A stretch of 43,911 nt of DNA from Deltaproteobacteria bacterium (GTDB lineage Bacteria; Desulfobacterota; Syntrophia; Syntrophales; UBA2210): assembly GCA_019313695.1 (NCBI GenBank), contig JAFDAS010000035.1, positions 1 through 43,911 on the forward strand, read 5' to 3'. Within the stretch, counting starts at the first letter, position 1, and the number at the start of each line of letters is the position of its first letter. Below the pieces are notes generated by a model. The model made no database searches and was not told where the DNA came from. It saw only the letters and a program-made list of their open reading frames with translations. Both the position numbers and the translations under genes were made by a program. Below, piece by piece: positions 29,117-33,954 of this stretch.

Positions 29117-31051
29117 CTATGCTCTTTTTTCAACTACTATGAGAGGATCGCCTACATCCACCTCGTCTCCGGGTGATACCAGTACATCTGAAACCACTCC
29201 ATTTATTTCAGAGATTATGTTGTTGAGCATTTTCATCGCTTCAAGGATAATCAGTATTTGCCCCGCCGAAACCTCTTCCGTCTCTGTAACGGGGACTTCG
29301 CTTACTGTTCCCTTTATGGGAGACCGGACATCTCCCGATTGCGCTAACTTTTCTATTTCTTTGGCTGAAAGTGTAACTTTTCTTTCTTTCTTATCGCCTT
29401 CCTGTTCAAGTTCCGTCAGTATGGGCTCGGGATGGTAATTTATGGTCAGATAAGTAACGGCATCCCCTGCCTTTGTTTTTCGTTTCGGGCCTATCTCGAT
29501 GATGTGATGTTTCCCATAGGCATCAGGAAATTCAAACCTCTCTCCAAGATTAAATCCACCTTTCTTAAACCACACACCGGGAGGCAACACCCATGTTTTG
29601 CCATATTTCTCTTCAAATTTAAAGAAATTCACCGCATCATTGGGATGTTGCAGATACAACACAAATTCATCTTCCGTGGCCGCCCGTCCAAGGCGATGCT
29701 CAAGCACCCTTCTGTCCACATCCAGATCGATATCTTCTATCTTCTGATATCCTTTTTCCTTTTCCGTTAGTTCCTTCCAATCCGGCCCGAATACCGCCTC
29801 ATATATGTTATCGGACGGCTTGTAAAAGGGAAGTTCTCCATATCTTCCAAGCATCAGGTTTTTCAAGTCATCGTTCGCGTTTTTATATCTTTCACCGTTG
29901 AGAACATTATTGACAGCCGTGGTCCACAGGATCTGCGAACCCGGAGTCACGCTCCACCAGTTTCCAAGCTCGACCTGAACGCGTGGCAACTCTTTCTGGA
30001 GGATCTCCGGCATCAAATGCAGGAAACCACCATTGACCGCCTGTTCAAAACTCGATCCCGTCGCCCCGCCAGGCAGTTTATGGGTCTGAACCGTGGGATC
30101 AAATCCAAGAAACTGAGATTCAAGATCCTTGTAATGCTCTCTCTCCGGACGCAGTTTATTCGAGGTATCAATAACCGACTGCCTGTCTATACCCAGCGCA
30201 TGGTGTCCATATTCATTCAGCGTATCGATGACCGTCAATATAGGGGGGGGGCCGTAGAAACCGGTGAAGGCATGATCTGCCGCATCCACAATCTTCGCCC
30301 CGTTTCTCACAGATTCAACGACTCTTCCCACATCATTTCCATCCGTGTTGTGGCCGTGGTAGTGGATAATGAGATCCGGATACCTGTCCAGGATGGATTT
30401 TGTCAGATCTCCAATCCTCTTGGCGGTTCCCAGACCACCATGATTTTTTATACAGAGGATTATATCCTCACCGGTAACATCAAGTATCTCTCCCACCTTT
30501 TGAACATAGAACCCGTCAGTGTGTTCCGGTCCCGTCGAGAAAGATATCGAAGGCTCCAGTATGCACCCGGCATCCTTTACCTCCTCGAACACCGCAGTCA
30601 TATTGGGTATGTAATTAAGAAAATCAAAGACCCTCCAGAGATGTACGTAACGGGCGAAACTTCGAACTGTCAAGCGAATCACATTTTCAGGATATGGCCT
30701 GTAACCGAAAAGATTGATCCCCCTGCAAAGAGTCTGGAACATCGTATCGGGCATTAACGAACTGAGAATCTGCAGCTTTTCCAGGGGATTGATCTGCCTG
30801 CGCAGCATATCCACATGAACCGATGCCCCTCCCGTTATCTCAAGAGAAAGGTACCCGGAGTCATTCCTCTCTTTGGAAACCAGAATCTGGGTGTGCGGCA
30901 TTATGCGGTTTTTGAAGTCGGATTGAGAGAGGTCTCTCTCTGTATTGGTTATATAATATCCATCTCCCGCCCTGATCTTGTCGAGAACATGTCGTACCCC
31001 GCCCTCACGCAAATCGCGAGGAGTAATTCTTTCATCGATAATCTGCTGCAC
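29117..31051 (-). CDS. Carboxyltransferase-biotin carrier subunit, PycB/OadA-like, divergent
   Basis: 644 residues: an HMGL-type carboxyltransferase barrel (about 35-310), a PYC/OADA conserved domain (about 320-480) and a biotinyl domain with the biotin lysine in LEAMKMLNN near the end. Family signs include LSLEITGGASVHVDMLR, LCRGINLFGY and LWRVFDFLN. Key motifs differ from pyruvate carboxylase and oxaloacetate decarboxylase. The metal-binding D-TT-RDAHQS appears as NTERDLSQS, the lysine motif KDMAG as KNHGG, and H.H.HDT as HYHGHNT. About 35 extra residues precede the barrel. With the biotin carboxylase encoded just upstream it forms a two-subunit enzyme, but pyruvate as substrate is not certain. 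Confidence 0.85.
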   Translation of the reverse strand: MQQIIDERITPRDLREGGVRHVLDKIRAGDGYYITNTERDLSQSDFKNRIMPHTQILVSKERNDSGYLSLEITGGASVHVDMLRRQINPLEKLQILSSLMPDTMFQTLCRGINLFGYRPYPENVIRLTVRSFARYVHLWRVFDFLNYIPNMTAVFEEVKDAGCILEPSISFSTGPEHTDGFYVQKVGEILDVTGEDIILCIKNHGGLGTAKRIGDLTKSILDRYPDLIIHYHGHNTDGNDVGRVVESVRNGAKIVDAADHAFTGFYGPPPILTVIDTLNEYGHHALGIDRQSVIDTSNKLRPEREHYKDLESQFLGFDPTVQTHKLPGGATGSSFEQAVNGGFLHLMPEILQKELPRVQVELGNWWSVTPGSQILWTTAVNNVLNGERYKNANDDLKNLMLGRYGELPFYKPSDNIYEAVFGPDWKELTEKEKGYQKIEDIDLDVDRRVLEHRLGRAATEDEFVLYLQHPNDAVNFFKFEEKYGKTWVLPPGVWFKKGGFNLGERFEFPDAYGKHHIIEIGPKRKTKAGDAVTYLTINYHPEPILTELEQEGDKKERKVTLSAKEIEKLAQSGDVRSPIKGTVSEVPVTETEEVSAGQILIILEAMKMLNNIISEINGVVSDVLVSPGDEVDVGDPLIVVEKRA

Positions 31052-31071
31052 TACTTTTATTCCTTTCAGGT

Positions 31072-31296
31072 ACTAATCCCGACAAGCGGGATAAGTCCCA
31101 CTAAAGAGGGATAAGTGCGATAACGAAGTTGCTTTCTGCGAGGAAGCAACTTCTATCTTACTAATGCGTTAACGAAATTCTTCCCTGCAAAAAGCGCAGG
31201 AAACAATTTCTAACTTACTATCCCCGACAAGCGGGATAAGTGCGTTAACGAAATTCTTCCCTGCAAAAAGCGCAGGAAACAATTTCTAACTTACTA
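31072..31296. repeat. Direct-repeat and hairpin region between the two carboxylase genes
   Basis: A 55-nt unit (starts GCGTTAACGAAATTCTTCC, ends CTAACTTACTA) occurs twice exactly, at 31166-31220 and 31242-31296. A divergent third copy precedes it at 31116-31163. Between copies lie CCCGACAAGCGGGATAAGTG words. Each unit can fold (GAAATT...AATTTC; AGTTGCTT...GGAAGCAACT). The last copy contains the stop codon of the biotin carboxylase gene. In RNA this would be a string of three hairpins. Confidence 0.85.
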
Positions 31297-32751
31297 ATAC
31301 GCGTAGGGGTTGATCTTCTTCGCATGGATCTCCGCGATCAACTGCGAGAGCTTGGCAATCTCCCGCTTGTTCTCCGGATAGTCAAACACCTCGGCATGTG
31401 TGTCCAGATAAGATGTATTGAATTCACCTTTCTGGAAATCGGGTTCATCACAGATCGCCAGGTAAAATGGTATTGTCGTCTTAGGGCCGACAATCAGAAA
31501 GTCATTCAGCGCCCTCTTGAGACGCTGTACAGCCTGTTCCCAGTTATGCCCACGAACGGTCATCTTTACCAGAAGCGAATCATATTCAGTCGGAATCTTG
31601 TATCCCTGATACGCTATACCATCCAGTCTTATACCGGGACCTCCGGGAGACTGGTATACCTCCACCCTTTTTCCACCTTCAGGCATGAAGTTGTTTCTCG
31701 GATCTTCCGCATTAACCCTTACCTGGATAGCCTTGCCCAGAAGATGAAATCGCACTTCGGGAATCTTCAGATGTTCCCCCTGTGTTATCATTATCTGTTC
31801 TCTCACGATATCTACACCGGTCAGCATCTCGGTAACCGTGTGTTCAACCTGAAGTCTTGTGTTAATCTCCATAAACCAGAACTTATTTGTGGCGGGATCA
31901 ACCAGAAATTCAACAGTTCCCGCATTTATATAACCTGACTCTCTGGCCGCCAGCATGGCCGTCTCACACATCGATTCAAGGACATCAACCGGAAGATCTG
32001 CGGGCGCAATTTCTATCAGCTTCTGGTGTCTCCGCTGGATGGAACAATCCCGCGAGCCGAGGTGAATGACTTTTCCGTGCTGGTCCGCCAGTATCTGGAT
32101 CTCAACGTGGCGGGGGTTCTCGATATACTTCTCTATATAGATATTATCATCATTGAAGGCATGCAAGGCTTCCGCCCTTGCAAGAGGTATCTGGACCAAC
32201 AGATCTTTTTTATCTTCAACCTTTCGTATCCCCCTCCCTCCCCCGCCGGAGGATGCCTTCAGCATAAGGGGAAACCCACATTTCTCACCAAATTCAATGG
32301 CGTCTTTTATCCCTTCTTCACCGGAAGCAAGATTCCCAGTGCCCGGCGTGACAGGTATGCCCGCCTTTTTCATGATTTTTCTGGCAACAACCTTATTGCC
32401 CAGGTCATGTATAACGTTGGGAGGAGGGCCGATGAAAGCGATATCGGCCTTTTCACAGGCGCTGGAAAAATCGGGATTCTCCGCCAGAAATCCATACCCG
32501 GGGTGTATCGCGTCGGCGCCGCTCTTGCGGGCCGCCCAGATCATCCTGTCAATGTCAAGATAATCCTTTCTCGGCCCATCGCCTATCATGATAGCGTCAT
32601 CCGCAAATCTGATAAAGAGCGCTTCTTTATCAGGGTTCTCGTAAACGGCTACTGACCCGAGCCCCAGTTCTTTGATCGTCCGAATCAGCCTCAGGGCTAT
32701 TTCACCCCTGTTGGCAACCAGAACTTTATTTATCTTTTTGCCTGTCGTCAT
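31294..32751 (-). CDS. Biotin carboxylase subunit (PycA/AccC-like)
   Basis: Uses ATP and bicarbonate to carboxylate the biotin on its partner. 485 residues. N-terminal VLVANRGEIALRLIRTIKELG, IHPGYGFLAENPDF, the ATP-grasp glycine loop KASSGGGGRGIRKV, HLGSRDCSIQRRHQKLIE, and FMEINTRLQVEHTVTEM (metal Glu/Asn and catalytic Arg) are all intact. The gene leads an operon with the carboxyltransferase gene. Its ribosome site (TTGGAAGG) lies partly in the 9-bp duplication made by the neighbouring insertion sequence, and the likely promoter is now 1.3 kb away. Confidence 0.92.
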   Translation of the reverse strand: MTTGKKINKVLVANRGEIALRLIRTIKELGLGSVAVYENPDKEALFIRFADDAIMIGDGPRKDYLDIDRMIWAARKSGADAIHPGYGFLAENPDFSSACEKADIAFIGPPPNVIHDLGNKVVARKIMKKAGIPVTPGTGNLASGEEGIKDAIEFGEKCGFPLMLKASSGGGGRGIRKVEDKKDLLVQIPLARAEALHAFNDDNIYIEKYIENPRHVEIQILADQHGKVIHLGSRDCSIQRRHQKLIEIAPADLPVDVLESMCETAMLAARESGYINAGTVEFLVDPATNKFWFMEINTRLQVEHTVTEMLTGVDIVREQIMITQGEHLKIPEVRFHLLGKAIQVRVNAEDPRNNFMPEGGKRVEVYQSPGGPGIRLDGIAYQGYKIPTEYDSLLVKMTVRGHNWEQAVQRLKRALNDFLIVGPKTTIPFYLAICDEPDFQKGEFNTSYLDTHAEVFDYPENKREIAKLSQLIAEIHAKKINPYAY

Positions 32752-32794: not shown

Positions 32795-33954
32795 ATAAGT
32801 GCCAGTCGTTCTGTTCTTTGAAATTTTGTAAGCTTTCTGCATTGGAATCTGTGCTGAAAGCTGAGTTACGCAGCTCATTCTGAATCTGAATGCGCAGTTG
32901 CCGCACCCTCTTGATGGAAACCTTTTCCTGATACTGCTCGTGACAATAGATCGCAAGCAACAGATAGGTTATTAAACCAGCAAGGATCTGAACCATAAGC
33001 CCATGCCTGCTCCTGGCAATCAAGTGATAAACCTTGAGATGCCTTTTCCACCATGCGAAAAAGTTCTCTATATCCCACCTGAGCTTGTACGCCTGTGCTA
33101 TCTGTTCAGCTGACAGGTCATAACGGTTTGTGGCAATCCAGTATTTTACACCGTCAATCTCATAACCGACAAGCCGAAGTTCTTTCTCAGTCTGATTTGT
33201 TCCGGCAGTGCCAAGCCTGACAACAGAATCATAAAAGACAATGCCGTCAGGATCTACATGATTGGCTCGGATGACAGTCTTCCTTGTATTGGCCTTGATA
33301 CGGCAGATAAAGAACTTATTCTCTCCCTGCCACAGATCAAAGCTTTTGTGACACTGGTATCCACGATCAGTAACGCTTGTATCTCCGGGAGAAAGTATCT
33401 GACTTACAAATGGCCTTTCAGCGCCCTTGCCTTCAGTGAAGAATATCTTTCTCGGAATACCCCGGTTCAGATCGAAACCGATATGAGGCCTTTGCTTTCT
33501 TGGATCCCTTTCTGTAGTCGGCCCAATACATGGAAAGAGTTGCGTCGATCAGAGAACCATCAATAGCGACAAGGTTTCCGAGTTCAGGGTGACGATTCGG
33601 CAGGATCCCTGCAGCCTGTTCCTGCAGAGCTTTAAAGACATGCATAAACTGTTCAAGACCTCTTGAATTGGTGGCCTCTGAGAAGCTGCTCTTTTTGATA
33701 CCCTCTTTGGGTGCTATCTGACTGCGGGCAAACTCGTCTTCTTCAAGCACCTGCAGCAGATGTTGTGCTGATGTATGCTCTTCGAGGTGAAAAAATACCA
33801 ATGCCCTGAGATGTTCGTCAAAACTCATTTGCAACGGTCTGTCTCCTCGTGATGTAAGTGGTGGCATGGTGGCCATTGCATTGCGAACCGGTTTATAGAG
33901 TGTTTTGAAGGATGGCGCATAATTTTTCCTTCGTGGGTAAAAAGTGCGTGGCAT
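32781..33954 (-). pseudogene. IS4-family transposase, one-base frameshift
   Basis: DDE transposase of about 390 residues if read through. The first frame (start MPRTFYPRRKN, ribosome site AGGAGG eight bases upstream) holds the first catalytic Asp in NLVAIDGSLIDA and runs to KKAKA. There one extra T at 33486 shifts the frame and the plain reading stops at 33433. Dropping that base continues as HIGFDLNRGIPRK..., with the second Asp in VTDRGYQCHK and the Glu in YKLRWDIENFFAWWK. The stop TAA lies in the left inverted repeat. A +1 programmed shift is unlikely, so this is a mutation or a sequencing error. Confidence 0.9.

Follow-up and report, generated by a model that had tools for sequence, protein, structure and literature searches.

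The carboxyltransferase (CT) gene at positions 29117-31051 and its biotin carboxylase (BC) neighbour probably encode a divergent two-subunit pyruvate carboxylase (PC) with an anaplerotic role, for which we infer pyruvate as the substrate. Both genes lie in the window, a stretch of 43,911 nucleotides from a Desulfobacterota genome. The CT tree places the CT subunit in a well-supported second clade (clade II) of Desulfobacterota enzymes, which appears to be old and little studied.

The CT gene is real. It was a single intact ORF of 644 codons with a GTG start (protein P0001), located on the minus strand, a point missing from the initial annotation. Named relatives with 91-93% identity were from Syntrophales/Syntrophaceae and related deltaproteobacterial MAGs, and full-length orthologues were found in many Syntrophales and other Desulfobacterota. 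Compared with relatives that were 91-92% identical, the gene was under purifying selection (dN/dS 0.043/0.557 and 0.048/0.772). The BC gene (31294-32751, 485 aa) was upstream on the same strand, separated by a spacer of 242 bp (31052-31293). Copies of a dispersed ~76-bp repeat filled this spacer, two of them exact over 56 nt and one degenerate, and the repeat had nine matches in the genome. In close relatives the spacer was often only 20-100 bp long. A GAAAGGA directly ahead of the GTG is a possible ribosome-binding site, and an Rfam search of the region gave no match. Upstream of the BC gene, also on the minus strand, a 173-aa ORF (33433-33954) looked by eye like a transposase fragment.

The protein had the PycB/OadA-type design and the biotin lysine that had been claimed for it. 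An N-terminal helix segment (residues 1-28; 30968-31051) was followed by a TIM-barrel carboxyltransferase domain (residues 30-312; 30116-30964), by the PYC_OADA conserved carboxylase domain recognized by domain search (residues 321-518; 29498-30091; PF02436, E 4.9e-38), and by a biotin carrier domain (residues 575-639; 29135-29329), whose EAMKM motif (29228-29242) carried the biotin Lys607. EAMKM was kept in all family rows except one truncated row. The barrel and the PYC_OADA domain place the protein in the PYC/OADA-type superfamily. Against PDB chains, phmmer matched it to the PycB of M. flagellatus with an E value of 6e-59, and the comparison of family profiles gave a probability of 100% (hhalign), a homology well above chance level. 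The best-scoring NCBIfam model was a pyruvate carboxylase, over residues 9-641; the scores for PRK09282 (289 vs 402) and PRK12999 (332.6 vs 965, the latter for a full-length model) stayed below the curated cut-offs. The segment preceding the barrel had been described as extra. It is so only against PycB, OadA and 5S, because residues 1-28 align with the N-terminal CT helix of single-chain PC. The barrel-side start in PycB and 5S corresponds to about residue 28-30, and the predicted structure pairs with the L. lactis PC from residue 4.

Three altered motifs had been reported, and all were present, with their changed residues fixed in the family: TNTERDLSQS (residues 35-44; 30920-30949), KNHGG (residues 202-206; 30434-30448) and HGHNT (residues 232-236; 30344-30358). 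The metal Asp, which was thought to be lost from the first motif, is kept. We compared the protein by phmmer with PDB chains, by mafft with PycB, OadA, 5S and two PCs, and by hhalign of family profiles. All three alignments paired R39-D40 of TNTERD with the R-D of DxTxRDAHQ, and the metal ligand is the Asp of this R-D pair. The first Asp of DxTxRD, whose position is occupied by Glu in 5S, is on this alignment not a metal ligand, and the initial annotation had taken the wrong Asp. They also matched K202 to the KDMAG Lys, H232 and H234 to the HTHDT His pair, and T369 to the Thr in the VTP motif (residues 368-370; 29942-29950).

For the active-site positions we assume the R. etli PC numbering D549, D590, R621, Y628, K718, H747 and H749. 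On this numbering, D40 corresponds to the metal Asp D549, K202 to the carbamylated metal Lys K718, and H232 and H234 to the metal His H747 and H749; R39, Q43 and R110 correspond to R548, Q552 and R621. The S. aureus PC index, which differs from that of R. etli by 7 and then by 6, reproduced all listed R. etli positions. The 5S chain index had an offset of 11, anchored by the Met186Ile and A59T entries, so that the R-D Asp of 5S is D23, which we take to be the published metal ligand.

Taken together, the catalytic residues R39, D40, Q43, R110, Y117, K202, H232, H234 and T369 and the biotin Lys607 were kept. D40, Y117, K202, H232 and H234 were invariant in the 108 family rows, some of which represent the same genome counted twice, and R39, Q43, R110 and T369 were kept in 108/108. 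The initial annotation had held that an intact Asp/Lys/His/His set would speak against its reading, and this set was found in the sequence. Since the R-D Asp is the ligand and D40 is kept, the metal ligand set of Asp, carbamyl-Lys, His and His is intact in sequence, and metal binding is predicted. In PC, Arg548 and Gln552 bind pyruvate (PMC10653868), and Thr882, the catalytic Thr to which T369 corresponds, is essential in the R. etli enzyme (PMC5895798). A loss of the catalytic Thr through the PGGxx[ST]N motif (Gly332 here) was considered and rejected, because by S. aureus/R. etli numbering Thr882 maps to the kept VTP motif.

The changes were in the second shell: the equivalent of D590 was His79, KDM became KNH, and HTHD became HGHN. 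N36, H79, N203, H204, G233 and N235 were each found in 108/108 family rows. G233 and N235 replace residues already variable among PycB, OadA and 5S, which have HAHAT or HCHST; the description of the motifs as nearly fixed in pyruvate and oxaloacetate enzymes goes too far for HTHDT. H79 was common to the whole of clade II, and KNH was restricted to the subfamily of the window and its sister subfamily, one member of which had KNY. The KDM Met corresponds to Met186 in 5S, a position at which a mutant (Met186Ile) has been solved. The family alignment presents H79, N203-H204, G233 and N235 as old, fixed differences. Within the clade, a metal ligand did change in two sister-subfamily proteins (L116 and L117), in which the second metal His of HGH was Cys (HGC).

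In an AlphaFold model of the CT subunit with its biotin carrier domain (mean pLDDT 82, pTM 0.77), the barrel had eight strands: D40 came directly after the first, K202 was at the end of the sixth, and H232 and H234 were at the end of the seventh. These modelled positions are as expected for this fold. The model confidence dropped in stretches near the active-site loops (62-83). Compared with CT structures of PC, the model reached Z scores of about 41-43 over about 520 residues (41.6 over 521 residues, with an rmsd of 3.3 Å, for the PC-pyruvate complex 4m6v), and its residues 4 to about 550 aligned on residues 497-1051 of the L. lactis PC. The fold also matched 5S and OadA.

In the maximum-likelihood tree of CT domains, a 100/100 branch separated the clade II forms and single-chain enzymes of 1230-1271 aa from PC, PycB, OadA, 5S and their Desulfobacterota relatives. 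The window CT was outside the clade of the five reference enzymes (100/100 branches). Membership in a clade with proven PC activity, the other observation that had been named as evidence against a distinct enzyme, was therefore not found. A very long branch, flagged as a long-branch join, parts clade II from every solved enzyme; because the deep joins are flagged in this way, the branching within clade II is less certain. The homologue table, tallied by hand for 297 genomes of the phylum, contained three forms: full-length orthologues with at least 59% identity (28/297 genomes), a form with 50-55% identity that ends before the biotin domain (14/297), and a form of about 690 aa with 39-44% identity (about 32/297). 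In the sister subfamily (L116-L121), the CT of about 550 aa ended before the biotin domain and had a BC gene adjacent. No biotinyl motif was found in the fetched flanks of these loci, and their carrier protein must thus be encoded elsewhere. One locus (L098) had its BC as two overlapping ORFs and its CT cut at the C terminus, probably due to frameshifts of a draft assembly.

Clade II also included single-chain PCs of the Desulfovibrio type (DVU_1834-like; L134, L154-L159). They had every catalytic residue in common with the window CT, as well as the signatures GGAxxH, YHxHxTDG and VTPGSQ, with a CT identity of only about 28-32%. In contrast to the window CT, which is a separate subunit with KNHGG, they had the BC fused N-terminally and kept KDMAG, and their BC fell in another branch. 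The seven proteins had 1230-1271 aa and masses of 136-140 kDa. Two of the genes examined (L154 and L156) were preceded by a biotin ligase and followed by a PPDK_N/PEP-utilizer gene; a third (L155) had the downstream gene, and a fourth (L134) the biotin ligase upstream. The Pc of D. vulgaris is DVU_1834, with 136.3 kDa, and is encoded beside PpsA DVU_1833 (PMC10920352). From size and synteny, we infer that the single-chain clade II genes are orthologous to Desulfovibrio Pc. In D. desulfuricans, the 13C patterns seen in threonine and proline agree with a formation of oxaloacetate from pyruvate, drawn as proceeding via pyruvate carboxylase (PMC7547702).

With the PycA/PycB enzyme of M. flagellatus (5KS8), the pair shares the fold and the distribution of BC on one chain and CT with the biotin carrier on the other, and the metal and pyruvate residues of PycB are kept. 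The identity to PycB was only about 27%, and the window CT was outside the PycB clade. It differed from PycB by an N-terminal helix and a C-terminal region of the single-chain PC type, and by the changes from KDM to KNH, from HAHAT to HGHNT, and from the D590 equivalent to H79. The fold of the single-chain PCs (R. etli, S. aureus, L. monocytogenes, L. lactis, human) was matched including the N-terminal helix, and the differences were the split into two genes and the changed second-shell motifs. OadA and 5S have the same barrel and metal ligands. They need no BC, whereas the window CT has a dedicated BC gene, and it did not belong to either group. CfiA, the 2-oxoglutarate carboxylase of Hydrogenobacter, is likewise a PYC/OADA-type CT with a biotin carrier domain and a separate BC.

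The window BC kept the equivalents of the E. coli AccC catalytic residues K116, K159, E201, K238, E276, E288, N290, R292, E296 and R338, and wherever a family locus had sufficient flank, a BC gene adjoined the CT. This constant adjacency argues for a carboxylase, and against both a decarboxylase and a transcarboxylase. At the sequence level, both a BC partner and a biotinylatable carrier Lys, as required for a PC, were thus present. In the BC tree, the window BC grouped with the BCs of canonical PycA and PC (93/91) and not with those of other clade II enzymes. An exchange of BC partners in clade II is possible. Separate divergent BCs were also found beside fused ACC-type carboxyltransferase genes (families f22, f42 and f79). 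At five loci (G107:C9, G017:C16, G055:C3, G261:C14 and G195:C1) a divergent BC of about 470-540 aa was adjacent to what looks like an AccA/AccD fusion, an ORF of about 756-775 aa whose two weak Carboxyl_trans matches come in swapped order.

The window CT was the only PYC_OADA protein found in its genome. No PEP carboxylase of either type, classical or archaeal, was found there, and a PEP carboxykinase was present. Three other genomes with the CT (G107, G218 and G261) gave no match for classical or archaeal PEP carboxylase, GTP- or ATP-dependent PEP carboxykinase, or malic enzyme. Several genomes with the CT also had an archaeal-type or a classical PEP carboxylase. The CT is therefore not always the only source of oxaloacetate, and the genome profile supports an oxaloacetate-forming role rather than proving it. 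In many Syntrophales, the BC-CT pair had secA, argJ, rpsB and a peptidase gene as neighbours, and elsewhere its neighbours were unrelated genes. Apart from BC, no metabolic gene was a constant neighbour of the CT in the loci inspected, which suits a housekeeping enzyme.

The pair would then work in three steps. With ATP and bicarbonate, the BC, whose residues are intact, would carboxylate the biotin on Lys607. The carrier would then swing into the barrel. There, a divalent metal bound by D40, carbamyl-K202, H232 and H234, together with R39, Q43, R110 and T369, would move the carboxyl group to pyruvate, giving oxaloacetate. From the genome content, oxaloacetate would feed amino acid synthesis and, via the PEP carboxykinase, gluconeogenesis. 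The physiological role of the pair would thus be oxaloacetate supply.

There is a small chance that the substrate is another 2-oxoacid (2-oxoglutarate, or a branched or hydroxylated one), with H79, N203, H204 and N235 making room for its side chain. The changed residues adjoin the metal site and do not vary at all within the family, the clade stands apart from every solved pyruvate enzyme, and the PEP carboxylase of several carriers is another oxaloacetate source. Against this, the pyruvate-contact residues are kept, no other C3-carboxylating enzyme was found in G107, G218 and G261, and the neighbourhoods described above are not substrate-specific. A literature search returned no described KNHGG-type enzyme and no proof of activity in Syntrophus, and we know of no activity for any close relative. 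The initial annotation had proposed a distinct carboxyltransferase with another substrate or metal geometry. Its first part stands, as the CT has its own lineage and a changed second shell and is outside the clade with the proven enzymes. The second part is unsupported, because the pyruvate-holding and proton-moving residues of R. etli PC are all kept and the genome content fits a PC.

A different proposal, which we consider unlikely and which does not compete with a PC for the CT subunit, is that the BC also serves the acyl-CoA carboxyltransferases of the genome. It was the only BC found there (one Biotin_carb_C match), as in several other Syntrophales, and Carboxyl_trans proteins are encoded elsewhere in the genome. 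However, these may be decarboxylases or parts of a transcarboxylase that need no BC, and no BC was found in a complete Syntrophales genome (G030). Six genomes (G000, G067, G157, G182, G206 and G271) had one BC found per genome. It is very unlikely that the CT is a subunit of a methylmalonyl-CoA:pyruvate transcarboxylase or an oxaloacetate decarboxylase, as in the propionate metabolism of syntrophs: the fold is that of 5S and OadA and syntrophic relatives carry such enzymes, but the CT contains a biotin domain itself and is encoded beside a BC dedicated to it, no 12S or Na+-pump subunit was a neighbour at the window locus or at those related loci that we inspected, and the same order has other, canonical-clade CTs without a BC found nearby, some of them beside a Carboxyl_trans (12S-type) gene, as expected for a transcarboxylase. 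An acyl-CoA carboxylase function of the CT was rejected, as fold and residues are of the PYC type.

As a divergent pyruvate carboxylase, the pair would show that the metal set can stay unchanged while the second shell around it is rebuilt, the KDM Met and Asp590 among the residues replaced. There is a small chance that the KNH/HGHN second shell instead gives a non-pyruvate 2-oxoacid specificity or a different proton path, pointing to an unrecognised carboxylation in syntroph carbon assimilation; with another substrate, the pair would be a new biotin carboxylase. On the preferred reading, as a pyruvate carboxylase, the pair is likely to be what forms oxaloacetate in many uncultured syntrophs and sulfate reducers, and in some of these no other route was seen.
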